From a bacterium (lineage in GTDB: Bacteria > Spirochaetota > Spirochaetia > JABEVK01), in the NCBI GenBank assembly GCA_021782055.1, contig JAJXVP010000017.1:1-30980 (forward strand): a DNA stretch of 30,980 bases, written 5' to 3'. This document shows positions 4,572 through 20,655 of the stretch, in pieces (within the stretch, counting starts at the first letter, position 1; each line of letters opens with the position of its first letter). The notes beneath the pieces are model-generated. The model was given only the letters and a program-made list of their open reading frames with translations, was not told the origin of the DNA and searched no databases. The position numbers and the translations under genes were made by a program.

Positions 4572-4583
4572 TAGCGTGAGCTT

Positions 4584-5818: not shown

Positions 5819-5847
5819 TTGACCGGCCAGTGAACCCGTGGTATCCT
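5819..5847 (+). promoter_or_regulatory. promoter, start codon 7 nt after the -10
   Basis: TTGACC (5819-5824), 17-nt spacer, TATCCT (5842-5847). The expected transcription start falls on or beside GTG 5855, so the message for the small Cys-rich protein may be leaderless. Confidence 0.5.
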
Positions 5848-5854
5848 ATTGCTC

Positions 5855-6178
5855 GTGGAACAGGACTTAGTAGAACAGGACACAGTTTACGGAAAGATTT
5901 ATTGTGCGAACTGCGCTCACTGCAAAGTGGTTCGCGTTCCTGCTGGCGATGGTAGTCAGTACCTCCTTCGCATTCGTTGTGCAGCAGGTAAGTGGAAAAC
6001 CAGAAACGGTGTGGAAAAGCTCTATAAGTATTTTACAATAACTCGACGAAGTCTGTTCAATTGTGAATCTTACTGTTCCATGGGTGATACACGAGGTTAT
6101 TTGCGTCAGCTGCGGTCGCTTTTGCCGCAAAAAGACGAAACCTACACCCAAAATCCTGAAACTCTTTCTTCTCGGTGA
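5855..6178 (+). CDS. small cysteine-rich conserved protein, possibly metal-binding
   Basis: About 107 residues if read from GTG 5855; TTG 5849 is in frame and would add two residues. No Shine-Dalgarno is seen. The N-terminal core carries YCANCAHC, followed by RIRCAAGKWK and NCESYCSMG, giving about seven cysteines in CxxC-type groupings that suggest a zinc or other metal site. A short stretch near LYKYFTITRR is basic and aromatic. I recall similar small proteins in spirochaetes starting close to the KIYCANC segment, so the first dozen residues may be lineage-specific. No known domain is recognised. The C-terminal tail after about residue 90 looks unstructured. Function unknown. Confidence 0.6.
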   Translation: MEQDLVEQDTVYGKIYCANCAHCKVVRVPAGDGSQYLLRIRCAAGKWKTRNGVEKLYKYFTITRRSLFNCESYCSMGDTRGYLRQLRSLLPQKDETYTQNPETLSSR

Positions 6179-6217
6179 TGTTTAACCTCAGTAAGATGTA
6201 ATCCCAAGGATGTTCTC

Positions 6218-6625
6218 ATGAAAAGGCATTATTTTCTGGGCGTAGTAGTTGTTGGACTGCTGCTCACCCTGTCTGGTTGTAAAACTGTTGATACCAATTT
6301 CACCCCTAACACCCCCACCGAGGTGTACTTTCAACGTGCGCAACAAGCCTCTGACCAGTATGATTACCAAACCTCACTCAAGATTTATTTGGAACTGCTT
6401 GCCAAAAAAGATTTAGACATGTCGACTCGTGTTTCGGCCCTGTATGAAGTGGCCTTTTTGCATTTCAAAATGGGCGACCGGGCCTTGGCTAAAACCCAGT
6501 TTCAAAAAATCTTAAACATGTACAACGACCCGACACTCAGTAACTTGCCTATTTGGGTTCAAATTCTTTCGACCAAGATTATAAAAGAAATAGACGCTGG
6601 TCAAAAAACAAACCGACAGGGTTGA
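6218..6625 (+). CDS. small TPR-type lipoprotein
   Basis: A 135-residue lipoprotein. The signal sequence MKRHYFLGVVVVGLLLTLSG is followed by lipobox Cys21. The mature part (about 30-130) is helical, with TPR-like spacing (YFQRAQQASDQYDYQTSLKIY, then ALYEVAFLHFKMGDRALAKTQF). This resembles small outer-membrane or periplasmic assembly lipoproteins that use tetratricopeptide pairs for protein contacts. ATG 6218 has AAGGATG about 5-9 nt upstream. It is followed by a convergent vWA gene 42 nt away with no clear terminator. Specific partner unknown. Confidence 0.7.
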   Translation: MKRHYFLGVVVVGLLLTLSGCKTVDTNFTPNTPTEVYFQRAQQASDQYDYQTSLKIYLELLAKKDLDMSTRVSALYEVAFLHFKMGDRALAKTQFQKILNMYNDPTLSNLPIWVQILSTKIIKEIDAGQKTNRQG

Positions 6626-6667
6626 TTGCGCCCCCAGCCACGACGGCCTAAGTCCTAGGTGTTTAGC

Positions 6668-7783
6668 TTAGTTACCGCCATCTCCCCCTGGGGGAAGTTT
6701 GACAATCTGGATTTCGACATTCTTTTCCAGGGCAGTTTGATGGACCATTGCCTCTGTTACTGCGCCCCTAGGCAGGTTATGTTGGGGGGCATCGCCAATT
6801 ACTAAAATCAAGCGGTGATTGGCCTGCCAGTCAAACGAATTCAAGGCCGCCCACAGTCCCTCGACGACCGCTTCGGGGATATCCCCGCCCCCCGCCGCAG
6901 TAGCCTGGTCTAAGGCCTTTTGGATAACTCCGACATCGGACTGAAACGTCACAACCCTGGTAAGGTAATCTTCCATATAATCACGGTAAAAGACCAACCC
7001 TAACCGAAAGTGTTGATAATTTTTGGCCTCGGCGGCAATCGGACCAAGCAAATCTTTTTGCAGGGCCTTGAGGTAGTCCTTCATGCTATTGGTTGTATCG
7101 ATACAAATCACCATATCCAGATCATCATGCACGGCACTCTGAATTCGATGAATTCCCTTGGCAATATCCGAAGCAACATAGACGGGCCCCAGTCGCCTGA
7201 GACGGGCGACAGCCGAATCGGTATCGGCAGGTGGGGGGGTAGCCTTTTCAACCAACTGACTTAACTCAAAAGCATTATCTTCGTACCTTCCCGTATAGTC
7301 CGCGTAAGGTTTTGAAAAGGTTCGTACCGAAAACCACAGCGATTGACCACTTTTAATGCGCTTTGCCAAGTTAATGCGGCCAAACCTTGCCCCGGGTTCG
7401 TGATACCCGTACTCGACCACCGGTGGAATCAAAATAACAAACGCCTCACCAAAATCTTTATCTGGAACAACGGTCGACGAAATCAGGTCGGTATGAGGTC
7501 CGGGGAGGAACTTACCGTTTAAAAGTCGCTGTTCATGACCGTTCAGCGCGTTAGGCTCAAGGCCCCTAAAGCTGTAAGTTGCTAGCTTGTGCCCCGCCGG
7601 TTCAAAAGCTTCTGTCAAAAGCACCGATTGTACCGCCGGAGTTTTCTTGATGATCAAATGGTACCCGTCGGGGTAAGCTTCAATTCTCACGTCGGCACCT
7701 GTAAGGCGTAAACTTGACTCGGGGGTCAACGCAACCAGGGGGAGCGTCGTCAAAACAGCCAGGAGCACAGCAATCAGCTTCAT
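6668..7783 (-). CDS. secreted von Willebrand factor A domain protein
   Basis: A 371-residue exported protein with a signal peptide (about 1-20) and no lipobox. The N-terminal 200 residues are beta-rich and unassigned. A vWA domain occupies about 220-365. Its MIDAS motif is DTTNS (D229, T231, S233), the DxTxS variant of DxSxS, and it also has the GGGDIPEA segment (298-305) typical of bacterial vWA proteins. Such domains bind protein ligands through a chelated divalent cation. It lies 37 nt downstream of the cNMP-binding regulator gene on the same strand. No Shine-Dalgarno is visible, but GATAAT sits 6 nt before the ATG, so it may have its own leaderless promoter. Ligand unknown. Confidence 0.8.
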   Translation of the reverse strand: MKLIAVLLAVLTTLPLVALTPESSLRLTGADVRIEAYPDGYHLIIKKTPAVQSVLLTEAFEPAGHKLATYSFRGLEPNALNGHEQRLLNGKFLPGPHTDLISSTVVPDKDFGEAFVILIPPVVEYGYHEPGARFGRINLAKRIKSGQSLWFSVRTFSKPYADYTGRYEDNAFELSQLVEKATPPPADTDSAVARLRRLGPVYVASDIAKGIHRIQSAVHDDLDMVICIDTTNSMKDYLKALQKDLLGPIAAEAKNYQHFRLGLVFYRDYMEDYLTRVVTFQSDVGVIQKALDQATAAGGGDIPEAVVEGLWAALNSFDWQANHRLILVIGDAPQHNLPRGAVTEAMVHQTALEKNVEIQIVKLPPGGDGGN

Positions 7784-7789
7784 GCCGAC

Positions 7790-7795
7790 ATTATC
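7790..7795 (-). promoter_or_regulatory. -10 hexamer 6 nt before the vWA gene start
   Basis: Minus-strand GATAAT, then 6 nt, then ATG (7783). The -10 matches at 5 of 6. I see no good -35 at normal spacing. Part of the leaderless pattern seen across the window. Confidence 0.35.
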
Positions 7796-7820
7796 GGAGA
7801 ATTTTTTGTCAGACTTATCG

Positions 7821-8426
7821 TTAGCACGTCCCGAGAGTCATCAGTTTTTCTAAGTTGGCGACTTCGATCAGGCCCGACGTGCGTTTAAGCACTTGAGAAG
7901 TTATTAAATCGTCTAGCGCTTGTTGCACTTCAGCACGAGCCAACGCCAAAGAAAGCGACAACTCGTCGGCTAACTTTTGTTCGTCGCCAAGTTGTGATGC
8001 TTGATGCGCCAGGACCTGTATAGCGCCCCAGACGGCCTGGTGACTAGATTGTTGCGCTAAGCGTTGAATTTGTCCGTTGGCATTTTGCAACCGCCGGCAG
8101 AGTTTATCGATGATGCTTAAAGCGATTTTTGGGTTCTTTTCGACCATTTGCTCTAAGCCCAGACGGTCAAAGGCCAATAAGGTGGTGGGTGCTAAGGTTG
8201 TGGCAGAAGCAGTCCGTTTTATTCGGTTGACAATGGCCATTTCGCCAAAGAATTCACCCTTTTCTAACACGGCAATCGGCGTTTCTTTGCCGGCAATTTG
8301 ACGGCTGATTTGAACTTTTCCCTCTTGAATGATGAACATTTGATCGCCTTCTTCATTCTCATGAAACACGATCTGATCGGTAGGAAGAACCTTGCCGTAC
8401 TTCTGCAAAAGGGGATTGTTATCCAT
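7821..8426 (-). CDS. cyclic nucleotide-binding (Crp/CAP_ED-like) regulator
   Basis: A 201-residue protein from ATG 8426. Residues about 15-120 form a cNMP-binding beta-roll with the typical pattern IVFHENEEGDQMFIIQEGKV, then GEFFGEMAI (phosphate-binding-cassette-like) and RTASATTLAPTTLL. The canonical PBC is FGE(M/L)AL-xxxxRxA(T/S); here R and A are kept. The C-terminal part (about 125-200) is helical and could be a divergent DNA-binding or winged-helix region (LADELSLSLALARAEVQQALDDL resembles an HTH). So it may be a transcription factor or a cNMP-sensing adaptor. A reading from TTG 8456 adds ten residues but lacks support. TATATT lies 6 nt before the ATG, suggesting a leaderless message. 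It is followed by the vWA gene. Confidence 0.78.
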   Translation of the reverse strand: MDNNPLLQKYGKVLPTDQIVFHENEEGDQMFIIQEGKVQISRQIAGKETPIAVLEKGEFFGEMAIVNRIKRTASATTLAPTTLLAFDRLGLEQMVEKNPKIALSIIDKLCRRLQNANGQIQRLAQQSSHQAVWGAIQVLAHQASQLGDEQKLADELSLSLALARAEVQQALDDLITSQVLKRTSGLIEVANLEKLMTLGTC

Positions 8427-8432
8427 ATCTCC

Positions 8433-8438
8433 AATATA
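8433..8438 (-). promoter_or_regulatory. -10 hexamer 6 nt before the cNMP-regulator start
   Basis: Minus-strand TATATT, then GGAGAT, then ATG (8426). The GGAG in the spacer is only 2 nt from the ATG, too close to act as a Shine-Dalgarno. No convincing -35 is seen. Confidence 0.4.
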
Positions 8439-8528
8439 ATCAAAAGGTAAGGCCAAAGCGAGAGCGCCTTACGGCCACTTTGAAGCAAAGTCGAGGTCCT
8501 GAGTGTTCCCCAAGTCTCAGGAGGATTT

Positions 8529-9503
8529 ATGAAACCATTGAACCTTGGGGCCAGTATTTTGCTTTTAGGAGTTCAGTTTTTGGGCTGCCAGGTTTTTGAG
8601 ACTGCCGCACCGGCTCGACTGCTGGAGTTCCATGCCGACGAATCGGCACTTCGCTTTACCTTTGATCACGCGCCCAAAGCGGCCGCGATGACCACCGATC
8701 CCCCAGGTGTCCTTTCGAGCCCCCACCTGCAAGGCGGTGTGGTGAGCCTAAAACGCCAAAATGAACCCCCAGGACGTGAAATCCGGTATTCCCTTGAAAT
8801 TCGCGAGGCCCAGGGATTGGTAACCGGGGTCCAAGGTTCCTATTGGGGAATAAACCCCAAAGCCGCTTTGTTACGGTTTTCTGAGGTGCGTAGTGCGGGC
8901 AATGGGCGGAACCCCGACGCGATTGAACTTGAAGTTCTTAAGGCCGGGTCTTTAACCGGTCTTTGCGTCGACTTGGCCACCCCTGGGCGTTTTTTTCGGT
9001 TTTCCTTTCCTTCGCAAGAGGTACAAAGCGGCCAGTATATGGTGATAGTGGCAGGAGCGCGACGGCCCTCCAGAATTCCGGGAACAATTTTCACTTGGGC
9101 TATTCCCGGTTTAGCTAACCAAGGTTTTTTGGTTGTACGAACCGCTCCAGACCAGCTCGCACAAGATGCGTTTTTATGGGGAAAAGATATTAAACGTGCT
9201 TCGGCTTTAGCTCAGTCCTATCACCGCCGTGAACCGACTGCTTGGGGTACTCAGTCCCCATGGACGGGACCGGCTTGGTGGCCTGAGGGGGCTAGCGCTA
9301 CCAGGACGTGGTGTCGCCTCAAAGAAAGGGCCTCACCCAATGGAGTCAGTCAGTGGATGCTCGTTGCAAACGGATGCCAAACGTTAGGCTCGGCCAACCG
9401 CCTGACACCTTACGACGCGTCACAAAAACGCACACTCACCGCCAAGGTCGCCAAGAAGAGTAAGACCAAAAGAGCCCCGTCTCACCCAGCGGCTCCCAGG
9501 TAA
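8529..9503 (+). CDS. lipoprotein with lamin-tail-like domain
   Basis: A 324-residue lipoprotein. The signal sequence ends at lipobox FLGC with Cys20, and ATG 8529 has a strong AGGAGG site. Residues about 114-180 read LLRFSEVRSAGNGRNPDAIEL and continue with a Gly-Leu-Cys strand and a GQYMVIV strand. This order matches lamin-tail (LTD) Ig-like domains, which begin with I(N/S)E(V/I) and a DxIEL turn and occur in many secreted bacterial proteins. The C-terminal about 30 residues are Lys/Arg/Ala/Pro-rich and look disordered. The 3' end overlaps the convergent gene at 9436 by 68 bp, which is where the basic tail lies. Function unknown; probably a cell-envelope protein. Confidence 0.6.
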   Translation: MKPLNLGASILLLGVQFLGCQVFETAAPARLLEFHADESALRFTFDHAPKAAAMTTDPPGVLSSPHLQGGVVSLKRQNEPPGREIRYSLEIREAQGLVTGVQGSYWGINPKAALLRFSEVRSAGNGRNPDAIELEVLKAGSLTGLCVDLATPGRFFRFSFPSQEVQSGQYMVIVAGARRPSRIPGTIFTWAIPGLANQGFLVVRTAPDQLAQDAFLWGKDIKRASALAQSYHRREPTAWGTQSPWTGPAWWPEGASATRTWCRLKERASPNGVSQWMLVANGCQTLGSANRLTPYDASQKRTLTAKVAKKSKTKRAPSHPAAPR

Positions 9504-9822
9504 ATAACACTAAGCGGCCAGCTTTCCACGAAAGCGCCGGAACTGAAAGCTTTGTCCAGTCCCCCGGTGCTTTCCAACCCATCCAAAACATGAGTTCTGG
9601 TGCCGGGCCCTCAAGGAAAGGCCCCTGTTCTCGGCTTAACCAAGAGCCTAGGGTGATCTCGCCCAAGTCAGCTTTAGTCGGGAAAGGAGACTTGTCTTGA
9701 GCAAGGAGCAAAGGGGGAAAGGCGCGAAAGGTGTCACCCACAACCTGGGCTACAGACTCTTGAAAGCGCAAGAGGCGAACATCGCCCCGGGGAGGAACCC
9801 AAGCCCACCGGGTTTTCTTCAT
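9436..9822 (-). CDS. unknown protein, 128 residues
   Basis: Not recognised. Read from ATG 9822, it has AAGGAAAAG upstream at good spacing, and it fills an otherwise empty interval between a plus-strand gene ending at 9503 and one starting at 9854. The protein is Trp- and Pro-rich (MKKTRWAWVPPRGDVRLLRF, then MFWMGWKAPGDWTKL), has no signal peptide and appears soluble. Its 3' end overlaps the lipoprotein gene tail by 68 bp. The coherent start, RBS and length favour a real gene, but the overlap lowers confidence. Confidence 0.5.
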   Translation of the reverse strand: MKKTRWAWVPPRGDVRLLRFQESVAQVVGDTFRAFPPLLLAQDKSPFPTKADLGEITLGSWLSREQGPFLEGPAPELMFWMGWKAPGDWTKLSVPALSWKAGRLVLFTWEPLGETGLFWSYSSWRPWR

Positions 9823-9837
9823 TTTTTCTTTTCCTTG

Positions 9838-9846
9838 TGTTACTAT
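9838..9846 (+). promoter_or_regulatory. extended -10, 7 nt before ATG 9854
   Basis: TGT-TACTAT (9838-9846) is an extended -10 (TGn plus hexamer, 4 of 6). It is followed by 7 nt and ATG 9854. It overlaps the alternative ATG at 9845, which argues for 9854 as the true start and for a leaderless message. Confidence 0.45.
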
Positions 9847-9853
9847 GCCCCCC

Positions 9854-10624
9854 ATGGTTCAAAAAATCAATCGCTTAGTCGAGAGTCTTGTGCAGGGCTT
9901 CAAAACCTGGCCTGGTCTAGAGACCGTGCAAAAGATTCCCTATCAGAGCTACTCTGACGCCCTCTTTGAGTTTACTAGCTTGAAGGTCGACGTGATTCTT
10001 GAGGGCGAGATCCCCGTCCAAAAACAACGCCTTAAGGTGCTTCCCCCCCACGAGTTTCTTGAAACCTCGTTAGCCGCGACAAAAGACCGGTTTTTCTTAG
10101 AAAGTGTTCCCGTGCATGTGGAATACAAAAAGACTCGTGAAATTGAGACTCTTGTCGCCGGAGTCAGAGATGAGCCTTTTACCTTGACGCAAGGTTCCAC
10201 CTACGGCCTCTATCGGGTCTTTTGGGGTGTCCCGGTAGTTTCGCGTACTGGTTGGATAGATCGGCAAAAACATATCCTTGAAACCCTGCCCGAAGGCTTT
10301 TGGCGCTGGCATGGAGCCAACCTTAACGCTCGGCTCGAACATCAATTGGCAGATATGGGAACCGCACTGTTTCATCAGGACCCTTTGCAGTTTCCTTTGA
10401 GTCTGGCCCAGTTGCTCGAGACCGTCACCGAGCACCTTTTGACCTTTCACCACCAATTCTTATGCCCCCCCGAACAACGCCTTCGAGCTCTCGAAGCGTT
10501 GCCCAATTTACCTTCGGGTTTTATGGGCTTGCTCAATTCTTTAATTCGATCTGACGGAGCTCTTGATCATGAGCGCAAGCTCACCGTAGCTCGTCGGCTC
10601 GTCGAACAGCTTTTGAGTTTGTAA
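9854..10624 (+). CDS. unknown cytosolic protein, 256 residues
   Basis: Not recognised. I prefer ATG 9854 because ATG 9845 lies inside the apparent -10 hexamer; neither has a Shine-Dalgarno. The protein has no signal peptide or membrane segment. Visible features are an N-terminal alpha/beta part (about 30-130) and a helical C-terminal half with TGWIDRQKHILETLPEGFWRW and a His-rich stretch (about 195-205). The arrangement loosely recalls nucleotidyltransferase-like proteins with helical tails, but no GSxxD catalytic motif is present, so I do not assign that. The stop is directly followed by the ATG of the HExxH protein gene, so the two are translated from one message. Confidence 0.7.
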   Translation: MVQKINRLVESLVQGFKTWPGLETVQKIPYQSYSDALFEFTSLKVDVILEGEIPVQKQRLKVLPPHEFLETSLAATKDRFFLESVPVHVEYKKTREIETLVAGVRDEPFTLTQGSTYGLYRVFWGVPVVSRTGWIDRQKHILETLPEGFWRWHGANLNARLEHQLADMGTALFHQDPLQFPLSLAQLLETVTEHLLTFHHQFLCPPEQRLRALEALPNLPSGFMGLLNSLIRSDGALDHERKLTVARRLVEQLLSL

Positions 10625-12151
10625 ATGCGCGCCTTGGTTGTGATCGTCGTTTTTCTGGGAACCGTCAACCTTCTGTTTGGTGGCGATGTTTTACGTCAGG
10701 GGAACAACCAAGCGCCGTTAGAACGGCACAAGCTTGAGTCGCGCGACTTTACGTCATGCTTTGAATGGTCCATGCCGGCAACGGCATCGAATTCTTGGCT
10801 TACGGTGGGGCCGTTTCCTCAGGGACAAGTTTTGCTTCAAATTGACCCAGAAACCCACGGTCCCGAAGCACGCTTTCCAGAGCTTTCGGGAACACCTGTT
10901 TGGCTTGCCTGGAAGCTCGACACGGGGTTGCATACTCTGCGCGTCACCACAACTGGGCTACCGCCAGGCCCGCTTACCCTTACGCTCAGCCATTCCCTGC
11001 CGACAAAAGAACCCCTGGAAGCTCTTTCAGGGTCACAACTCGCCCTCACTCTGCCCCCTTGGCAAACAGCACCTGGCTACACGCCGGCCTTGGAATTCTC
11101 TTGGTATTCGAATGCGGGGTTTACCGCGCAAAATACCGTGCGCTTTCGTTTTTCAGGTCGAGCCGGAACGTGGCGCTTTTATCCCCAAGTTTGGCACGAT
11201 GAGGCACGCCGCTGGCTTTTGACCTTTCGCAAAGGGGCCCCCGTTCCCTTGTACCGGGTAAAGCTGGTAGCGACACCTGGCGAGGCAGCTCTTCCGGCTG
11301 ACCCCGCCACTATCCTACATTGGCCTGCCGAATGCCTTCGGGAGGGCGATCATGACTGGTTTCTCTGGAACGGTAGGCGAAATATTTTGATCCTTCTGAC
11401 AAAATCCTACGCAGTTCAAGCCCAATTTCTAACCAGGCTTGCTTTCTTTGTTGAAAAACAGGGCTACCGCGGGACAATTTTGAACGAGCAAGAGGCTCGA
11501 CGTCTTCACGGCTGGAATGCCCACGATTATGCCCCCGAAGATTTAGCAAACTTTTTCAACCTGGCCAGTGCCGAGAACTTTCCCCTGTCTGCACAAGAAA
11601 AGGAACTTCGCCAGAGGTTGATCACTCAAAAGCTTTTGATACCAACTTCACCAGGGCACTGGAAGGCAGGCCAAGGGGCTTTGTTGGGCATCAGCGACGA
11701 ATCGCCCCCGCCTTTACGTGCCTTTTTGTTGACGCACGAGAGTTTTCATGGGCTGTACTTTACAACACCCCAGTATCGTCAGACTGTGGCTCAAATCTGG
11801 AGCCAACTGCCGTCAGCTTGTCGTCAGCAGTTTAGAAATTTTTTGGCTCAGGCACACTACGATGTGACCGATTCCCCTCTGGTAGTGAATGAATTTCAAG
11901 CTTACAGCCTACAACAATACTCGGATGGTTGGAGCGACTTTTTTCGTGATAAGGTTCTAAATGCGCCAGGGGTTGCTGACCTCGGGCCCCCAGCTAGCCT
12001 ACGGGCTTCGCTTTTGAACTACTATTTGCAAGCCGCCGAAAAGCTTGACCAGGCGGTAAGCCAGGACTTTGGAGTGCAATCGGGCGACATTCAGGATCCA
12101 GTCGCACATTTCTTGGCTGGCAGAAACAGTCTAACCCTGGCACCACCCTGA
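10625..12151 (+). CDS. secreted putative metallopeptidase (HExxH, gluzincin-like)
   Basis: A 508-residue exported protein with a signal peptide (about 1-20). The C-terminal half contains HESFH (371-375), giving zinc ligands His371 and His375 and catalytic Glu372. NEFQAY follows at 422-427, where Glu423 could be the third ligand, as in gluzincin-type NExxA motifs. The N-terminal half (about 40-250) is beta-rich and could be one or two substrate-binding modules. The arrangement suggests a periplasmic or surface peptidase. It starts immediately after the upstream stop. Its last 20 codons overlap the convergent kinase gene by 61 bp. I do not recognise a named family; peptidase activity is inferred from the motifs. 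Confidence 0.65.
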   Translation: MRALVVIVVFLGTVNLLFGGDVLRQGNNQAPLERHKLESRDFTSCFEWSMPATASNSWLTVGPFPQGQVLLQIDPETHGPEARFPELSGTPVWLAWKLDTGLHTLRVTTTGLPPGPLTLTLSHSLPTKEPLEALSGSQLALTLPPWQTAPGYTPALEFSWYSNAGFTAQNTVRFRFSGRAGTWRFYPQVWHDEARRWLLTFRKGAPVPLYRVKLVATPGEAALPADPATILHWPAECLREGDHDWFLWNGRRNILILLTKSYAVQAQFLTRLAFFVEKQGYRGTILNEQEARRLHGWNAHDYAPEDLANFFNLASAENFPLSAQEKELRQRLITQKLLIPTSPGHWKAGQGALLGISDESPPPLRAFLLTHESFHGLYFTTPQYRQTVAQIWSQLPSACRQQFRNFLAQAHYDVTDSPLVVNEFQAYSLQQYSDGWSDFFRDKVLNAPGVADLGPPASLRASLLNYYLQAAEKLDQAVSQDFGVQSGDIQDPVAHFLAGRNSLTLAPP

Positions 12152-14359: not shown

Positions 14360-14365
14360 AACGCT

Positions 14366-14371
14366 ATTGTA
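14366..14371 (-). promoter_or_regulatory. -10 hexamer 6 nt before the kinase gene start
   Basis: Minus-strand TACAAT (5 of 6), then AGCGTT, then ATG 14359. The -35 region is weak. It would drive the two-kinase operon. Confidence 0.45.
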
Positions 14372-14397
14372 ACCTACTTTTGGCGAAAGAAAAGGGC

Positions 14398-14427
14398 TTT
14401 ACATACTTTGCTTTTTTGTGTTAGTTT
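14398..14427 (+). promoter_or_regulatory. candidate promoter for the L28 gene
   Basis: TTTACA (14398-14403), 17-18 nt spacer, then TTAGTT/TAGTTT (14421-14427). It leaves a leader of about 25 nt carrying the GAAGGGG ribosome site. Confidence 0.35.
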
Positions 14428-14459
14428 GCCTTTCTAGAGTTTCTGTGAAGGGGTTTCTT

Positions 14460-14687
14460 ATGGCCAGAAGATGCGATATTTGCGGCAAGGGAACAATGTT
14501 CGGTAATAATGTTCCTCGCAAAGGTCAGCCGAAGAAGCAGGGTGGCGCTGGACAGCACATCGGGGTGCGAACCCTGAGAACTTTTAAGGCCAATATTGTG
14601 AATGTCAAAACCAGCTTGAACGGGACTGTTCAGACCATTAAGGTTTGCACTTCGTGCCTGAAAGCCAACAAGGTGCAAAAAGTCTGA
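14460..14687 (+). CDS. rpmB: 50S ribosomal protein L28 (bL28)
   Basis: A 75-residue ribosomal protein; this is the full normal length. ATG 14460 is preceded by GAAGGGG; an upstream reading from 14418 would only add leader sequence. It shows the bL28 start MARRCDICGKG, the GGxGxHxGVRTxRTFKAN core, and a C-terminal CTSC. The two CxxC pairs (Cys5/Cys8 and Cys63/Cys66) mark the zinc-binding C+ form of L28, which some genomes replace with a zinc-free copy when zinc is scarce. L28 sits in the large subunit near the E site. It is monocistronic, with its own terminator. Confidence 0.97.
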   Translation: MARRCDICGKGTMFGNNVPRKGQPKKQGGAGQHIGVRTLRTFKANIVNVKTSLNGTVQTIKVCTSCLKANKVQKV

Positions 14688-14732
14688 CAGCGGCGAGCTG
14701 GCGGACGAGACGTTCTCGCGCTTTCTACGGAG

Positions 14733-14763
14733 AAAAAAACCGGCTTTTTGCCGGTTTTTTTTT
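14733..14763. terminator. intrinsic terminator after rpmB
   Basis: Stem ACCGGC (14739-14744), TTTTT loop, GCCGGT (14750-14755), extended by A-run/T-run pairs and followed by a T-tract. The symmetric flanks let it also serve the convergent MBL gene ending at 14794. Confidence 0.85.
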
Positions 14764-14793
14764 GCCTTTGCGGTTTTTTTTGCCTTTGTTCCT

Positions 14794-15555
14794 TTAGTTC
14801 ACTTCAACCGTTAAGCCATCCCAAGCCGCCTCGACGCCCTCCGGAAGTCGGGACTGCAAGTCTTGATGCCGTATTTCATGGCCAATGTGGGTTAAATAAG
14901 TTTTCTTAGCCCCAAGTTCTCGAGCCAAAAGTACCGCTTTTTCAAACGTCAAATGGGTAGGGTGTGGCGTTCGTTGTAGGCCGTCGAGAAACAACACCTC
15001 AAGGCCCTTAAGTTGCTCTAAGCTCGGGGGTGGGAGCGCAGAACAGTCTGTCACGTACCCCATTTCGCCTATCCGAAAGCCAAGAATTTGGTCCTTTCCA
15101 TGAAAAACCCTCACCGGTAAGACCTCTAGCCCATGGGCGTCAAACCTTTGACCGGCACGAATTTCATGGACCCGTAGTTTGGGCCGCGAATTAAGACCGT
15201 CACCGGCAACAAAGGCATAAGGAAACATCCGATTGAGCTGTTGCAACAAGGCTTGTTCGGCCCAGATATCCACACCAGTGCGGTATGAAAGCGGACGAAG
15301 GTCATCGAGGCCCAAAATATGGTCGGCGTGGCCATGGGTGAATAAAACCCCGTCAAGATTCTTTAGACCGACCCGTAGCGCCTGGGCACGAAAATCCGGC
15401 CCAGTATCGATGATCCAATTTTTCTCGTTCACCGTGAGGAGCAACGAGGAGCGTAGGCGGCGATCTTTCGGGTCAGTTGAGGTACACAGGGAGCACGAAC
15501 ACCCAATAACAGGCAAACCGGTTGAGGTACCGGAACCTAAGACAGTGCAGATCAC
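14794..15555 (-). CDS. PhnP-like metallo-beta-lactamase-fold phosphodiesterase
   Basis: A 253-residue MBL-fold hydrolase. The metal-binding motif HGHADH is at 74-79, and further ligands include Asp150-region TDCS and a C-terminal THIGHE His. The N-terminus has LGSGTSTGLPVIGCxCxLC, with Cys19, Cys21 and Cys24. This CxCxxC insertion typifies the PhnP family (phosphoribosyl 1,2-cyclic phosphate phosphodiesterase) and related MBL proteins that carry an additional zinc. No phosphonate genes are near, so a different cyclic phosphate or nucleotide substrate is likely. It starts at GTG 15555, overlapping the upstream stop by 4 bp (GTGA), so it is coupled to the PilZ-like gene. Confidence 0.85.
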   Translation of the reverse strand: MICTVLGSGTSTGLPVIGCSCSLCTSTDPKDRRLRSSLLLTVNEKNWIIDTGPDFRAQALRVGLKNLDGVLFTHGHADHILGLDDLRPLSYRTGVDIWAEQALLQQLNRMFPYAFVAGDGLNSRPKLRVHEIRAGQRFDAHGLEVLPVRVFHGKDQILGFRIGEMGYVTDCSALPPPSLEQLKGLEVLFLDGLQRTPHPTHLTFEKAVLLARELGAKKTYLTHIGHEIRHQDLQSRLPEGVEAAWDGLTVEVN

Positions 15556-16343
15556 GAAGGGTTTCCCGCCTCTGCCGCCTTCTTTTTGGCTAAAACCGTT
15601 TTTCGAAACAGGTAGTCCTCTAGGATAGACAGCAGTTCATTCGAAAACTCTAACGCCAAGCTTCCTTTTGTGGCAATTTTTCCCGCTATCGTCACCGCCC
15701 CACTGCGAAAATAGACTTTGAGCTGTAAATCCTTGGCTTCATCCGGGTTCTCTTGAGCTTCGGGTAATACAAATTCTGCGACCTTGGTACTTAAGGTTTT
15801 CAAGGTAACTTTCCAACGCCGTTCGCCTTGCAACAGCTCGGCATAGTGGTTGTAGCCCAAAAGGGAGGACTGTTCTTCATCTAGCACAATCACGGTATCC
15901 CACTTCTCGTAGGCCTCTAAACGCAACTCTTGTTCTTCCCAAAATTGTCCCAAAATTTGCACAAGTTCGGCCGGAGCCGTTGTAAACTTTACCTGTAACC
16001 AGCAGACATTTTTTCGTTCGGGGAGCGGGGTTATGGCTTGAAGATGAACTTTAATATGAAAGCGAGCAGTGTCTTTTTGCTCCGGATTTTCAAAAACGAG
16101 CACCAAAGTGTTGACTGAGGCTAAAAACCGAGAAAAAAGGGTAACTTCCGAGGTGGTCAAAACCCCCAGAAGTTGGGCTCCCTGCAGACCTAAAAGACCG
16201 GGTACCACCGTCAGGTTGTATTCCCCGAGCTTCAGCAGGGTTTGATTGGTCAACAACCGTGTACGCCGCTGAAAATAAGGGTCAACTTTAACTTGACGAT
16301 CGGCGAACTTCGCCTGGAGCTGCTGAACGTCGTATACCTGCAT
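15552..16343 (-). CDS. PilZN3/PilZ-like protein, c-di-GMP motifs degenerate
   Basis: A 263-residue cytosolic protein. The segment about 75-135 (a beta-strand, an HIKVHLQAITPLP strand, WLQVKFTTAPAELVQILGQF) matches my memory of the N-terminal PilZN3-type domain found in spirochaetal PilZ proteins. The following part (about 145-245) aligns with the PilZ barrel in position. In canonical PilZ, c-di-GMP is bound by RxxxR and (D/N)xSxxG; here the equivalents look like EKWDTVIV and KTLSTKVAEF, so both arginines, the Asp and the Gly appear lost. This suggests a non-binding or altered PilZ. TATATT sits 6 nt before ATG; a GGAG-like run is 15 nt upstream, too far for initiation. It is coupled to the MBL gene. 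Confidence 0.5.
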   Translation of the reverse strand: MQVYDVQQLQAKFADRQVKVDPYFQRRTRLLTNQTLLKLGEYNLTVVPGLLGLQGAQLLGVLTTSEVTLFSRFLASVNTLVLVFENPEQKDTARFHIKVHLQAITPLPERKNVCWLQVKFTTAPAELVQILGQFWEEQELRLEAYEKWDTVIVLDEEQSSLLGYNHYAELLQGERRWKVTLKTLSTKVAEFVLPEAQENPDEAKDLQLKVYFRSGAVTIAGKIATKGSLALEFSNELLSILEDYLFRKTVLAKKKAAEAGNPS

Positions 16344-16349
16344 AAGCTT

Positions 16350-16355
16350 AATATA
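16350..16355 (-). promoter_or_regulatory. -10 hexamer 6 nt before the PilZ-like gene start
   Basis: Minus-strand TATATT (5 of 6), then AAGCTT, then ATG 16343. The -35 is weak. Divergent to another 6-nt case at 16389, within a 57-bp intergenic gap. Confidence 0.45.
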
Positions 16356-16365
16356 ATCTCTCCTC

Positions 16366-16394
16366 TTGCGCTCCGCTAGACTCCCCTTTAGAGT
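16366..16394 (+). promoter_or_regulatory. promoter with -10 6 nt before ATG 16401
   Basis: TTGCGC (16366-16371), 17-nt spacer, TAGAGT (16389-16394), then GAGCGT and ATG. Both elements match at 4 of 6. Predicts a leaderless transcript for the membrane pseudo-hydrolase. Confidence 0.45.
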
Positions 16395-16400
16395 GAGCGT

Positions 16401-17813
16401 ATGCGATTATGGGAAACCGCTTTCTTACTTAGCCTGTTGGCCTATCATCTGGCCCTTTTGGCTCCGCGGCGCCGTAGAGCTCCGGCCTGGAACTGGCTGG
16501 CCCCGTTAGCCGGCTTGCTAGCCCTGGTTTCGGCATTGGTGGAAGGCCTACGCTGGACAGATATGCCCGCATGGGGACTTTTGATTCTCGACCTCCTGGT
16601 TTTGATGTTTACCTTTAAAACGTTGAAAGGTCGGCCGCTCCGCAAAGGTTTTTGGTTTGGCTTGCGCTCTGTGTTTCGGTACCTCTTTGTTTTGGCCTCA
16701 CTTCTGATGGTTTTAGCCATAGTCTCGTTGTCGTTTTGGTTTCCGCTCCCCGCTAACAGTTGGTCGGGCCCCTTTAAAACGGCGTTACGAATTGAAAACC
16801 TCCCGCCTTCTCACGCCGAGCCCTCAGCTCAGAAGCAAGTCTTACTTTGGTACCCGGCAGCAGGCTCCTATACCCCCGGGATTCGACCTTTGCAGACTCG
16901 CGCCGCCTGGGTCACCCTTCAAGAGAAGGGTGGTCCCCCGCCTTTTCTGGATTCTCATTGGGCCTTGTTACCAGCAGGACAGCCTGCGCATTTTATTCAG
17001 GGCGGCAAGCTCGCCGGTCAAGAGAGCCAATACCCGGTTCTTCTTCTCATCCCGCCCAAAAAGACTTTTGCTTGGGAATATGAATACCTAGCCGAGGATT
17101 TGGCCTCCCAGGGCTTTGTAGTGGCCGCACTTACGACGCCCCTGAGTGCGCCCGCCGATAAAACGGTCTTTCAAGATTTTGCCGCTTTTGTCCGGTCTTT
17201 TGCCTGGGGTCCCACCTTTTGGAATTCGTTTTGGTATCTTGAGCAACAGCAGTCCCAAGCCCTCAATCGCAACGTCATCGCTGAAGCAGTCCATCTAAAA
17301 ACGCTTTTAACACAGATGGACGAAACGCCGGGAAATTTGCTTTTTCATGGGCTGGATTTATCGAAGGTTGCCCTTTGGAACCTGGGAGCACCACCACTCG
17401 ATATGTCCACTTTGGCCGCCCAAGGCTTTAAGGTTGTCGTTACACCCTGCGCCCGCCATACCGGGGACATGACTATTCTCCAGGTACCCTACTCCGGCGA
17501 AACTTTTGCACCGGGAGAGGGGCCTGCTGTATGGTCGCTCAAGATTCGCGGATTGCACCCCGCCGATTTAACCGACATGGCGTTTCTTAAGCCGTATTTG
17601 GCCTTTTGGAACCTGAAGGGACGCTTCGACGCTCATCCCCAGCTCTTATTCCGGGCGTATACAGGCGATTTCCTTATGCGAGCCTTTTACCCCGCTGGGC
17701 ATTCATTCACCGAGGGCTTACCTCTTATGGACGATGTCACAGTGACTCATAATTTCCCGGCAGGAAGTAAATCATCCCAGACCAACCCCTCCCCGTCGGC
17801 GACCGGGCGTTGA
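16401..17813 (+). CDS. membrane-anchored alpha/beta-hydrolase-like protein lacking the nucleophile
   Basis: A 470-residue protein. Four hydrophobic helices (about 5-20, 31-50, 56-74, 92-116) are followed by an extracytoplasmic or cytosolic alpha/beta-hydrolase-like domain (about 140-440) resembling the PAF-acetylhydrolase/dienelactone hydrolase group: YPVLLLIP strand, then EYEYLAEDLASQGFVVAAL, then LDLSKVALW at the nucleophile-elbow strand. Family members read LDLSRIxVFGHSFGG; here it is LDLSKVALWNLGAPP (319-332), so the GxSxG serine is missing. The strand that normally carries the Asp ends in VVVTPCA, also without Asp. A His remains at 386 (GLHPADL). It is therefore probably a pseudoenzyme. 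The 3' end overlaps the NeuB-family gene by 67 bp. Confidence 0.6.
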   Translation: MRLWETAFLLSLLAYHLALLAPRRRRAPAWNWLAPLAGLLALVSALVEGLRWTDMPAWGLLILDLLVLMFTFKTLKGRPLRKGFWFGLRSVFRYLFVLASLLMVLAIVSLSFWFPLPANSWSGPFKTALRIENLPPSHAEPSAQKQVLLWYPAAGSYTPGIRPLQTRAAWVTLQEKGGPPPFLDSHWALLPAGQPAHFIQGGKLAGQESQYPVLLLIPPKKTFAWEYEYLAEDLASQGFVVAALTTPLSAPADKTVFQDFAAFVRSFAWGPTFWNSFWYLEQQQSQALNRNVIAEAVHLKTLLTQMDETPGNLLFHGLDLSKVALWNLGAPPLDMSTLAAQGFKVVVTPCARHTGDMTILQVPYSGETFAPGEGPAVWSLKIRGLHPADLTDMAFLKPYLAFWNLKGRFDAHPQLLFRAYTGDFLMRAFYPAGHSFTEGLPLMDDVTVTHNFPAGSKSSQTNPSPSATGR

Positions 17814-18853
17814 AGGGTTCGTCCCAGGACGAGGTTCAAAAACTGCGGGGAAAGTCCCGGTCGTAAAACCTTTTCGGTTCGCAGAACGGCAACATCCTCG
17901 GCAGTCAGCACGTGCCCTGCTTTCAACGCTCGCAAAACGTGCAAACTGCGATTCGTTCGTTCATAATTGGCTTTTTCGCTTTCTGCCAACTGTTTTTTCC
18001 CCGAGCCTAAGACGGCTTGTACCCTAGCACCAAACCTGTCCACAGCCCAAGTTAGCCGTTGGGACTCGGGAACCTGTTGAACTTCCCGTAGGGTTTGTAC
18101 CATTTGCCGAAACAGAGCCGGGTCCAAGGCGATAGGGTCATCCAGGCCAGGGTCGGAACGGTCAAGGCAGAGGTGCTTCTCAACTAAACGCGCACCCACC
18201 GCAGCGGCAACTCCCGGCACCAAGTCGGGGTCCATAGAATGGTCAGACACCCCAACTGGGCAACCAAACAATACGGAAAGAGGCTGTAAAACCTTTAAGT
18301 TATAATCTTCGGGCGGGGCCGGGTACGCGGTGACGCAGTGCAAGAGCGCCTTTTGACCCGAAAGGACAGCAAACGCCGCTTCGATATCGGCTAGATAGCT
18401 CACCCCCGAAGAAAGCACCAAGGGTCGTTGATAAGAGTCTAGCTCTCGTAAAAGAGGAAAATGGTTCAGCTCGGGCGAAGCCACCTTGAACCAACTCGCT
18501 CCGATTCGATTGAGCAATTGAGCACTTTTCACCCCAAAAGGGGACGCTAAAAAAACCAAACCTGCTTTTTCGGTCTGTTCGCGGCAAAAGGCATAAAACG
18601 CCTCGTCTTGTTCAACGTCTTTAAAACGATCGTAAAGCCTGACCTTTCCCCCCGGCAGAGGAACGTCTCCGGTTAAGGGGTGGATGATTTCGTCGGCGAA
18701 GACCACTTGAAACTTGACACAATCCGCTCCCGCTTCGGCGGCAGCGGCAATCAGCTCCCGAGCCAAACTCCTATCACCTTGATGGGAAGTTCCCACCTCC
18801 GCAATGACAAAAACCCCCTGTGAAGAGGAAAAAACGTCCTGAAAGTCCTTCAT
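17747..18853 (-). CDS. N-acetylneuraminate synthase family protein (NeuB-like)
   Basis: A 368-residue cytosolic enzyme. The NeuB TIM barrel (about 12-280) shows AEVGTSHQGD (19-28), VKFQ (47-50), a Ser-Ser-Gly segment, HCVTAYPAP, GVSDHS and EKHLCLD. A C-terminal SAF (antifreeze-like) domain covers about 300-368. Family members condense phosphoenolpyruvate with an N-acetylated hexose to make nonulosonic acids such as sialic, legionaminic or pseudaminic acid. The exact sugar cannot be read. No other nonulosonic-acid genes are visible here. Such sugars often decorate flagellins in spirochaetes, but that is inference. The start has no Shine-Dalgarno; GAAAAT is 6 nt upstream. It is divergent from the small gene at 18933 across an inverted repeat. 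Confidence 0.9.
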   Translation of the reverse strand: MKDFQDVFSSSQGVFVIAEVGTSHQGDRSLARELIAAAAEAGADCVKFQVVFADEIIHPLTGDVPLPGGKVRLYDRFKDVEQDEAFYAFCREQTEKAGLVFLASPFGVKSAQLLNRIGASWFKVASPELNHFPLLRELDSYQRPLVLSSGVSYLADIEAAFAVLSGQKALLHCVTAYPAPPEDYNLKVLQPLSVLFGCPVGVSDHSMDPDLVPGVAAAVGARLVEKHLCLDRSDPGLDDPIALDPALFRQMVQTLREVQQVPESQRLTWAVDRFGARVQAVLGSGKKQLAESEKANYERTNRSLHVLRALKAGHVLTAEDVAVLRTEKVLRPGLSPQFLNLVLGRTLQRPVADGEGLVWDDLLPAGKL

Positions 18854-18859
18854 ACGGAT

Positions 18860-18865
18860 ATTTTC
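18860..18865 (-). promoter_or_regulatory. -10-like hexamer 6 nt before the neuB-like start
   Basis: Minus-strand GAAAAT (4 of 6), then ATCCGT, then ATG 18853. TTGAAC lies 19 nt further upstream. Weaker than the other members of the series. Confidence 0.3.
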
Positions 18866-18875
18866 GGCATTTCTC

Positions 18876-18902
18876 TATCGACAAGTTCAAAGGATGTCGA
18901 TA
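18876..18902. promoter_or_regulatory. inverted-repeat operator candidate
   Basis: Perfect arms TATCGACA (18876-18883) and TGTCGATA (18895-18902), 11-bp spacer, centre spacing 19 bp. It overlaps both the -35 and the -10 of the plus-strand promoter and sits between two divergent genes, as expected for a dimeric repressor site. Confidence 0.5.
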
Positions 18903-18906
18903 AAAT
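18878..18906 (+). promoter_or_regulatory. strong promoter for the gene at 18933
   Basis: TCGACA (18878-18883), 17-nt spacer, TAAAAT (18901-18906): each matches consensus at 5 of 6. Transcription would start near 18913, so the earlier in-frame ATG at 18894 cannot be used. Confidence 0.65.
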
Positions 18907-18932
18907 TACAGAAACTTGTGGGAGGAGATGCC

Positions 18933-19253
18933 ATGACACCTTTGATTTGTGATTTTACGGGCGAGGTGATTGTTGCGGCGGCGGACCCCCAAAACGGTCC
19001 CCAGCTTGACCGGGACTATTTTGTGGCCTACAACCGCGTCTTGAGCGTGAAAGGCAAAGAAAAACTCGATGCCATTGTTTGGGAATCCATGAAAGCTCGT
19101 GGTTTCGGCAAGTACAACTTCATGGAATACAAACGAGTCTTTAAGGCTGCCGTTGAACAGTACTGCAATCGTTCCAAGACGACGTATAACAAGAATTTTC
19201 ACGCCGACAACAAAAACGACTTCCGCTCACCTCAACAATCCTTTTGGCAATAA
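18933..19253 (+). CDS. small conserved protein of unknown function, 106 residues
   Basis: Not recognised. ATG 18933 has a strong GGAGGAG site 7 nt upstream, and the promoter lies over the earlier ATG at 18894, which therefore is not the start. The protein begins MTPLICDFTGEVI and has a Lys/Arg/Tyr-rich second half (GKYNFMEYKRVFKAA, then KTTYNKNF). No signal peptide, no membrane segment and only two cysteines. The basic C-terminal part could bind nucleic acid, but this is only suggested by composition. It is monocistronic, with a strong promoter and terminator, consistent with high expression. Confidence 0.7.
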   Translation: MTPLICDFTGEVIVAAADPQNGPQLDRDYFVAYNRVLSVKGKEKLDAIVWESMKARGFGKYNFMEYKRVFKAAVEQYCNRSKTTYNKNFHADNKNDFRSPQQSFWQ

Positions 19254-19311
19254 TTTCGCGTCTGTCTCTGCAGTTTGTTTCTTTTGTCAGTTACAATCGT
19301 TAGAAATAAAA

Positions 19312-19336
19312 AAAACCGCCCATGGGCGGTTTTTTT
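19312..19336. terminator. bidirectional intrinsic terminator
   Basis: Perfect palindromic stem ACCGCCCATGGGCGGT (19315-19330), with an A-run before and a T-run after. It separates the small gene ending at 19253 from serS ending at 19338 on the other strand. Confidence 0.85.
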
Positions 19337-19337
19337 G

Positions 19338-20621
19338 TTACGCTTTTCTTGGTTTAATCACTTCAAAGCCACAGTAGGGAACCAAAGCGGGCGGAAGGCG
19401 TACCGAGCCATCTTTTTGCTGAAAGTTTTCAAGAATCGCCACAATAGCTCGGCTTACCGCCACGGCAGTTCCATTGAGCATGTGGACAGGGCGATTTCGG
19501 CCAGCCTCATCCTTGTACCGAATTCCTAAGCGCCTGGCTTGAAAGTCAGTACAGTTCGAGGTTGAGGTGATTTCACCCCAATCGCCACCTTCGCCACGGC
19601 CAGGCATCCAGGCCTCGAGGTCATACTTACGATAAGCGGGCGCCCCCAAGTCTCCTGTGCAAGTGTCCACAACCCGGAACGGGATTTGAAGTGAGGTGAA
19701 TAATTCTTCTTCAAGCCCTCGTAGCTCTTCGTGGAGGGCATCAGACTCTTCGGGACGGCAATAAACAAACATCTCAACTTTAGTAAACTGGTGAACCCGG
19801 TACAGTCCTTTCGAGAACTGGCCATGCGCCCCCGCTTCGCGGCGGAAACAGTGCGAAACCCCTGCCATCTTGATGGGACCATGAGACAAATCCAGGATTT
19901 CCTCGGAGTAATAGCCCCCCAAGGTAATTTCGGCCGTGCCCACGAGGCAGGTGCCAGTCCCCTCTAAAGGGTAGATGTTCGATTCTTCGCCTCGAGGGTT
20001 AAACCCTATCCCTGCTAAAACCTCTTCTTTGGCAATATCAGGGGTAATCAGAGGGGTAAAACCCTTCTTGGTTAACAGGTCTAAGGCGTAGCGCACCAGG
20101 CCCAATTCCAAGAACACCCCTTCGTTCTTTAAAAAGTAAAACTTTGTGCCCGAGACCTTCGTTCCAGCTTCAAAATCAATAATGTCGAGGTTTTCGCCCA
20201 ACTGAACGTGATCCAGCGGAGCAAAGTCAAAGGTTGTGGGGATGCCCACCCGCTTAATTTCTAAGTTATCGCCTTCGAGTTTGCCTACCGGAGCGTCGGG
20301 GTGAGCCATGTTGGGAAGGCTCATCATGGCTTTTTTAAAGCTCTCTTCCACCTTCGCTAGCTCTTCTTCGAGGGTGGCAATAGCTTCTTTCAATTGACGG
20401 CCCTCCTCGATCAGAGAAGTTCTTACCTCTGGCTCGAGTTTCCCCTTCATTTTACCGGCATTTTCGTTGCGGGCGGCTCGGCGGGCTTCTAGAGTCTGTA
20501 ACAGTCGTGAGCGTTCCTCGGCTAGCCGAAGCGCTTCATGGGGGTCGGCCGTCATATGGCGATTTTTTACATTCAATAGAACGGCGTCGAGGTTATCCCT
20601 CAGAAAATTCAAGTCAAGCAT
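19338..20621 (-). CDS. serS: serine--tRNA ligase
   Basis: A 427-residue class II aminoacyl-tRNA synthetase of normal length. The N-terminal coiled coil (about 30-100) binds the long arm of tRNA-Ser. The catalytic core has TAEITL (229-234), motif 2 FRREAGAHG (259-267), and motif 3 GTAVAVSRAIVAILEN with Arg391. It charges tRNA-Ser, and where needed tRNA-Sec, with serine. It lies 65 nt downstream of the PtsN-like gene. Its ATG has no clear Shine-Dalgarno, but TTGTCA-17-TAAGAT ends 5 nt before the ATG, so it likely has its own promoter and a leaderless message. Confidence 0.97.
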   Translation of the reverse strand: MLDLNFLRDNLDAVLLNVKNRHMTADPHEALRLAEERSRLLQTLEARRAARNENAGKMKGKLEPEVRTSLIEEGRQLKEAIATLEEELAKVEESFKKAMMSLPNMAHPDAPVGKLEGDNLEIKRVGIPTTFDFAPLDHVQLGENLDIIDFEAGTKVSGTKFYFLKNEGVFLELGLVRYALDLLTKKGFTPLITPDIAKEEVLAGIGFNPRGEESNIYPLEGTGTCLVGTAEITLGGYYSEEILDLSHGPIKMAGVSHCFRREAGAHGQFSKGLYRVHQFTKVEMFVYCRPEESDALHEELRGLEEELFTSLQIPFRVVDTCTGDLGAPAYRKYDLEAWMPGRGEGGDWGEITSTSNCTDFQARRLGIRYKDEAGRNRPVHMLNGTAVAVSRAIVAILENFQQKDGSVRLPPALVPYCGFEVIKPRKA

Positions 20622-20626
20622 AATTC

Positions 20627-20655
20627 ATCTTACCGAGGAGTTCTTAGCCTGACAA
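20627..20655 (-). promoter_or_regulatory. promoter with -10 5 nt before the serS start
   Basis: Minus-strand TTGTCA (plus 20650-20655), 17-nt spacer, TAAGAT (plus 20627-20632), then GAATT and ATG. The -35 is 5 of 6 and the -10 is 4 of 6. The same TTGTCA is used in the tRNA promoter. Confidence 0.5.

Follow-up and report, generated by a model that had tools for sequence, protein, structure and literature searches.

The window analysed here is the whole of a 30,980-nucleotide (nt) stretch of contig JAJXVP010000017.1 (assembly GCA_021782055.1) from a spirochaete of the lineage JABEVK01. A recurring element lies immediately before several of its genes, namely, a hexamer resembling the −10 box of a bacterial promoter, located 5–7 nt upstream of the start codon. 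A preliminary description of the window had listed nine such genes without a usable Shine-Dalgarno sequence and had interpreted them as leaderless. One of them is serS, whose product, seryl-tRNA synthetase (SerRS), is 96% identical to that of genome G003, 79% to that of L001 (a Spirochaetales metagenome-assembled genome), and 77% to those of L002 (a Spirochaetaceae metagenome-assembled genome) and G004. In a tree of 94 SerRS sequences, the window, G003, and L001 fall together (support 99–100), and a wider group includes L002, G004, G005, G007, and L006 (support 91–94). The positions of the hexamers and of the associated −35 boxes are as follows.

4572..4577, forward strand: TAGCGT, 6 nt before ATG 4584 (not in the preliminary description)
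5819..5824, forward strand: −35 box TTGACC, 17-nt spacer to the −10 box at 5842; unchanged in G003
5842..5847, forward strand: −10 box TATCCT, 7 nt before GTG 5855; unchanged in G003 (L200)
8433..8438, reverse strand: −10 box TATATT, 6 nt before ATG 8426 (cNMP-binding domain protein); kept in G003
9841..9846, forward strand: −10 box TACTAT, extended (preceded by TGT), 7 nt before ATG 9854; identical in G003
14366..14371, reverse strand: −10 box TACAAT, 6 nt before ATG 14359 (histidine kinase); −10 box and gap identical in G003
16350..16355, reverse strand: −10 box TATATT, 6 nt before ATG 16343 (PilZN3 domain protein)
16366..16371, forward strand: −35 box TTGCGC, 17-nt spacer to the −10 box at 16389
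16389..16394, forward strand: −10 box TAGAGT, 6 nt before ATG 16401
19338..20621, reverse strand: serS, seryl-tRNA synthetase; Pfam N-terminal domain from residue 1
20627..20632, reverse strand: −10 box TAAGAT, 5 nt before ATG 20621 of serS
20650..20655, reverse strand: −35 box TTGTCA, 17-nt spacer to the −10 box of serS

All nine hexamers of the preliminary description are present where they had been placed. The pattern TANNNT with a gap of 5–7 nt to the start codon holds in seven of them (5855, 8426, 9854, 14359, 16343, 16401, and 20621), and does not hold at 7783 (GATAAT) and 18853 (GAAAAT). The −35 boxes at exactly 17 nt, claimed for three cases, are found at 5855, 16401, and 20621, the only genes in the window with a TTG-type −35 box, and the tRNA synthetase gene said to be among the cases thus carries both boxes. 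Among the genes with Shine-Dalgarno sites that had been described as free of such a hexamer, the description holds for rpmB (14460), for the gene at 18933, and for atpK (21673). With the starts of the preliminary description, TANNNT at gap 5–7 occurs in 8 of 30 genes, that is, the seven listed cases and the unlisted 4584; when these 30 upstreams are shuffled 1000 times with dinucleotides preserved, the mean is 1.06, and no shuffle is as high. Another blind gene call of the window gives the site in 6 of 27 genes (1.4 expected). The observation made in the window is largely right, and is partly confirmed.

The individual sites differ in detail. At 5855, both boxes are unchanged in G003, and four of the seven gap bases differ. 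The layout at 16343 is kept in the orthologues of L097 (57.6% identity; TAGAAT at gap 6 and TTGAGC at 17) and L002 (36.6%; TAAGAT at gap 6), and the orthologues of 16401 in L002 (35%) and L180 (33%) have TTG...N17-TANNNT at gap 9. The start codon of serS is secure, since the Pfam N-terminal domain begins at residue 1. The gene at 8426 has no −35 box. The same is true of 4584, which starts 12 nt past the upstream gene and whose TAGCGT is probably a chance match.

The preliminary description had proposed an alignment of upstream sequences as a check, and the predicted TANNNT peak is found in the nearest genomes, G003 and G004. For gene calling in the relatives, a dicodon model was used, with starts assigned blind to the upstream sequence, in sampled DNA of 622 kb (of about 2.6 Mb) for G003, 400 kb for G004, and 95 kb for G005. 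The first base of TANNNT falls at −13, −12, and −11 in 17, 40, and 9 of 527 upstreams in G003 (8.1 expected per position), in 14, 24, and 1 of 334 in G004 (3.7), and in 4, 7, and 2 of 75 in G005 (0.75). The peak is centred on gap 6, and the totals for gaps 5–7 are 66 against 24.3 expected in G003 (p = 2e-12), 39 against 11.2 in G004 (p = 7e-11), and 13 against 2.2 in G005. The small samples of G001 and G002, from the same lineage, give 10 against 4.0 and 5 against 2.5, respectively. Outside the lineage, G031 (9 against 3.3), G014 (5 against 1.8), and G020 (12 against 6.5) are weakly positive, and the excess in G012 is borderline (8 against 4.1, p = 0.05). By the same method, a sample of Escherichia coli shows no peak (2 against 4.1, 80 upstreams) and the MP1 sample of Deinococcus radiodurans shows a 10% excess (8 against 0.6, 74 upstreams). 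No clear peak is seen in Rubrobacter loci without serS (4 against 1.8, 65 upstreams) or in Planctomycetes loci (6 against 3.6, 172 upstreams).

The excess over background corresponds to 7.9% of genes in G003, 8.3% in G004, and 14.3% in G005. The pattern had been called widespread; the excess is real, but the strict share is about 8–14% of genes and not nine of about thirty. This strict measure may understate the share, because leaderless genes are reported to make up about one third of the D. radiodurans total (PMC12340547), yet 10% is obtained here; this is only a hint, the MP1 sample being small and a plasmid. Among the five sampled genomes of the lineage, G005 (L216–L220) has the highest excess together with the smallest Shine-Dalgarno share close to starts (0.33 against 0.20 in the background). 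The anti-Shine-Dalgarno tail of 16S was found as an exact pattern in two of eight genomes (G031 and G013), and the 16S model matched only G007 among the six nearest; the few matches in the nearest relatives probably reflect assemblies without 16S.

To characterize the sites, those of G003, G004, and G005, which have the strongest peaks, were pooled, and the small samples of G001 and G002 were omitted. The 96 pooled sites were picked solely by TANNNT at gap 5–7 and absence of a Shine-Dalgarno sequence. Nevertheless, unselected promoter features appear in them. At a spacer of exactly 17 nt, the first three −35 positions are T (0.71), T (0.53), and G (0.59), the extended −10 position is G in 0.47, and the fourth −10 position is A in 0.56. 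At least four of six −35 matches are found in 33% of the sites at spacer 17, 15% at 18, 6% at 16, and 0–4% at other spacers from 12 to 23, whereas genes without the −10 box never exceed 5.4% at any spacer. Of the 117 pooled genes that have the −10 box, 21 also have a Shine-Dalgarno sequence, compared with 428 of the 819 that lack it (p = 6e-13). The site frequency also depends on gene arrangement: 63 of 276 divergent genes have a site (17.0 expected), as do 24 of 155 genes 15–60 nt behind a same-strand gene (5.4 expected) and 15 of 158 more than 60 nt behind one (5.7), while only 9 of 307 do so at less than 15 nt (7.6). The sites avoid operon-internal genes and mark the head of the transcription unit. 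ATG is the start codon in 92% of site genes, 85% of Shine-Dalgarno genes, and 74% of genes with neither. Judging from these features, the sites are sigma70-type promoters of the ordinary kind that lie directly against the start codon.

The promoter site is also kept in diverged orthologues. Since the first version of this comparison was dominated by serS, it was redone without this gene. The 204 reciprocal-best pairs whose starts coincide include 7 with the site in both members, 17 with it in one, and 180 with it in none (odds ratio 17.5, p = 2e-5). Below 70% identity (169 pairs), the p value for shared sites is 0.005.

These observations suggest that, in a substantial minority of the genes heading transcription units in this lineage, a sigma70-type promoter abuts the start codon and gives a leaderless mRNA, with a probability of roughly 0.88. 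The promoter is TTGAC-N17-TANNNT, sometimes with an extended −10 box, and its −10 box lies 5–9 nt upstream of the start codon. Transcription by RNA polymerase begins about 7 nt past the −10 box, which would place the mRNA 5′ end at the start codon or no more than about 3 nt away, with a leader of about 0–3 nt; the mRNAs should thus be leaderless. Such mRNAs would carry no Shine-Dalgarno sequence, and the ribosome would have to recognize the 5′-terminal AUG directly, a mode known for leaderless mRNAs. Operon-internal genes, and about half of all genes, have Shine-Dalgarno words instead. We infer the 5′ ends and the mode of initiation from the promoter boxes, their spacing, the exclusion of Shine-Dalgarno sequences, and the conservation, all of which are read directly. 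The leaderless interpretation of the preliminary description is supported by the peak, the −35 box at 17 nt, the avoidance of Shine-Dalgarno sequences and operon interiors, and the orthologues.

Several points weigh on the other side. The wider evidence is drawn from sampled DNA of relatives and not from the window's own genome, and the near-identical upstreams of G003 add little to single cases in the window because G003 is so close. In G013, G027, and G030, sampled over 100 kb, no excess is seen, and other spirochaete loci without serS show little (35 against 23.9 in 479 upstreams, 2.3%, p = 0.02). Taken by itself, G004 avoids Shine-Dalgarno sequences only weakly (13 of 39 genes with the −10 box against 144 of 295 without it, p = 0.05). 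Seven shifted control positions in the orthologue comparison give p values from 0.03 to 1, two of which are near 0.05 (0.03 at shift 28 and 0.07 at shift 24). In the 74 upstreams of D. radiodurans, the combination of −35 and −10 boxes at the start codon is at background (1 against 1.0 expected) though leaderless genes are established there; therefore, a −35 box is no requirement.

The two genes that depart from TANNNT should be noted, since a different promoter type may explain them. The gene at 7783 encodes a VWA-domain protein and that at 18853 belongs to the NeuB family. Their upstream elements are as follows.

7791..7798, reverse strand: TCCGATAA, sigma28-like −10 box, 7 nt before ATG 7783, overlapping the GATAAT; unchanged in G003
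7814..7817, reverse strand: TAAG, sigma28-like −35 box, 15-nt spacer; unchanged in G003
18861..18868, reverse strand: GCCGAAAA, 7 nt before ATG 18853, overlapping the GAAAAT; kept in G003 and L001

The sigma28 consensus is TAAA-N15-GCCGATAA. The arrangement TAAG-N15-TCCGATAA-7 nt-ATG at 7783 matches it in 10 of 12 positions, with one mismatch in each box, and GCCGAAAA-7 nt-ATG at 18853 matches in 9 of 12, with a poor −35 box. Sites of this type are few: 8 of 17 matches lie at gap 7–9 among 2064 upstreams, and two of these eight are the same gene in the window and in G003. That 7783, and perhaps 18853, is preceded by a sigma28 (FliA) type promoter likewise abutting the start codon has, in our judgment, slightly less than an even chance. 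Leaderless promoters may not be confined to sigma70.

Another conceivable reading is that genuine promoters precede misassigned start codons, the true start lying downstream with its own Shine-Dalgarno sequence and a short leader. Start placement is indeed imperfect, as 11 of 22 alignment-projected starts of metG moved by one or two codons. However, a downstream start with a Shine-Dalgarno sequence within 30 codons is found in just 1.0% of site genes, compared with 3.7% of Shine-Dalgarno genes and 5.9% of genes with neither, and SerRS relatives align from residue 1 and methionyl-tRNA synthetase (MetRS) relatives from residues 1–4, making this explanation highly improbable. The hexamers could also be chance AT-rich matches that look regular only through the choice of start codons. 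The choice does raise the count in the window: earlier in-frame starts are available at 8426 (TTG 8456) and 9854 (ATG 9845, overlapped by the −10 box), and GTG 5855 was preferred to TTG 5849. In addition, 4584 matches the motif in spite of its probable chance origin. With blind or 5′-most starts, the count falls from 8 to 5 of 30 genes (shuffle mean 1.04), but only 4 of 1000 shuffles are as high, and the peaks of G003 and G004 were obtained with blind starts. Chance is already refuted for the pattern overall, though single cases could be due to it, and as a general explanation it is very unlikely. Least probable of all is that the stretch is a translation signal of leadered mRNAs (an unstructured or S1-binding leader) and no promoter: a possible role as S1 sites has been considered for AT- or U-rich stretches before genes without Shine-Dalgarno sequences (PMC5397173), but the exact spacing, the specificity for TA...T, and the −35 box at a 17-nt spacer are features that RNA polymerase recognizes, and genes close behind a same-strand neighbour lack the site.

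Start-abutting sigma70-type promoters are found at serS and metG well beyond the window. Genes were counted as TA-led when at least 7 of 12 −35/−10 positions matched with a spacer of 16–18 and a gap of 5–9 and no Shine-Dalgarno sequence was present; the promoter part of this definition is satisfied at 4–9% of shifted positions. Loci short of upstream DNA were omitted from the serS counts, and identical proteins were counted once. The first 66 spirochaete serS genes comprise 49 TA-led, 16 with a Shine-Dalgarno sequence, and 1 with both, and six further genomes add 1 TA-led, 4 Shine-Dalgarno, and 1 with neither, giving 50 TA-led genes of 72. In 28 non-spirochaete outgroups, none is TA-led and none has both, 17 have a Shine-Dalgarno sequence, and 11 have neither. 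The rule that every spirochaete serS has the promoter, a Shine-Dalgarno sequence, or both (66 of 66) was broken by G027, which has neither. On well-supported branches of the SerRS tree, the TA state must have changed at least six times; it has therefore switched repeatedly.

After correction of starts, 27 of 36 metG genes, one per genome, are TA-led, 2 have both features, 5 have a Shine-Dalgarno sequence, and 2 have neither. The correction, made after the upstreams had been viewed, moved the start to the nearest in-frame ATG (otherwise GTG or TTG) within 2–3 codons; in the first 22 genomes it changed the counts from 14 TA-led, 6 neither, 1 Shine-Dalgarno, and 1 both to 20, 0, 1, and 1, respectively, and the same rule was applied to the 14 later genomes. 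The first 20 fetched upstreams were those of G001 and of 19 among the best-scoring matches; G003 and G004 were also included, and the set covers 36 of 41 searched genomes (G002, G006, G008, G009, and G041 have no usable 5′ end). The upstreams of G014 and G039 are nearly alike and not independent. The −10 box of metG is TATAGT in 12 of the 36 genomes (L252–L271 and L305–L318), more uniform than the loose TANNNT predicts.

A general leaderless class of synthetase genes was considered and is not supported. Nine others, found with E. coli queries in the fetched spirochaete DNA, comprise five with a Shine-Dalgarno sequence, one TA-led, and three with neither, the last having blind starts, some of them plainly misplaced or truncated at the end of a contig. 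Twelve other housekeeping matches are likewise distributed over Shine-Dalgarno (6), neither (4), TA-led (1), and both (1), and ychF is mixed (13 Shine-Dalgarno, 4 TA-led, 4 neither, of 21). The layout at serS and metG reaches beyond the genome-wide peak, the excess in other spirochaete loci without serS being 2.3%. Tentatively, and with odds rather against it, serS and metG may have been kept leaderless across much of the phylum by a start-abutting promoter that alternates almost only with a Shine-Dalgarno sequence, even in genomes whose 100-kb samples lack a genome-wide excess (as for metG in G013 and G030), and the lineage of the window may have expanded it to a principal mode of expression, close to Deinococcus levels. 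Such a state could reflect a constraint on the synthesis of SerRS and MetRS, for example, translation by 70S ribosomes under a shortage of initiation factors.

As for neighbouring genes, the one at 18933–19253 had been labelled a rubredoxin, and no Pfam match was found for it at E 1e-3; it has relatives in L123 (G003), L081, and L135. Near the start of the window lie a Fic-family protein (1446–2534) and a RelA/SpoT-domain protein with TPR repeats (3369–4571).

The present analysis would add a little-studied spirochaete lineage to those with strong leaderless usage, here with a visible sigma70 promoter. The leaderless layout of two essential genes, serS and metG, recurs in many spirochaetes and is therefore testable in cultured species; in the open-licence literature, judged by listings, no account of serS or metG as leaderless genes in spirochaetes was seen. 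Gene finders that expect a Shine-Dalgarno sequence may misplace starts in such genomes, and at such genes promoters can be read off the sequence. Leaderless genes in spirochaetes are already published, and the mode is known in other bacteria and little studied in spirochaetes. The pattern had been thought notable for a spirochaete; it is less surprising given about 440 mapped mRNAs of Leptospira interrogans with leaders below 10 nt (PMC5243855) and the prediction of such genes in 6 of 18 spirochaete genomes (PMC3160421).

Zheng et al. (2011, PMC3160421) describe TANNNT-marked leaderless (TA-led) genes in many bacteria. The genes described here resemble them in having TANNNT about 12 nt before the start, no Shine-Dalgarno sequence, and a frequency above that in shuffles. 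The mean reported there for the six spirochaete genomes is 3.9% (1.8–6.9), unlike the 8% in G003 and G004 and 14% in G005, though the percentages are not strictly comparable because that study used another algorithm. In Deinococcus-Thermus, the −10 region adjoins open reading frames and its promoter function was tested (PMC12340547); the motif and its position are alike in the two systems, whereas the −35 box, a clear part of the pattern here, is at background in the D. radiodurans sample, which shows only the −10 peak. L. interrogans is also a spirochaete but of a distant lineage, and its 5′ ends were mapped, while those proposed here are predicted from sequence alone. The L. interrogans study describes no promoter motif besides sigma54 elements (PMC5243855), whereas in the lineage of the window the sigma70 motif is clear.

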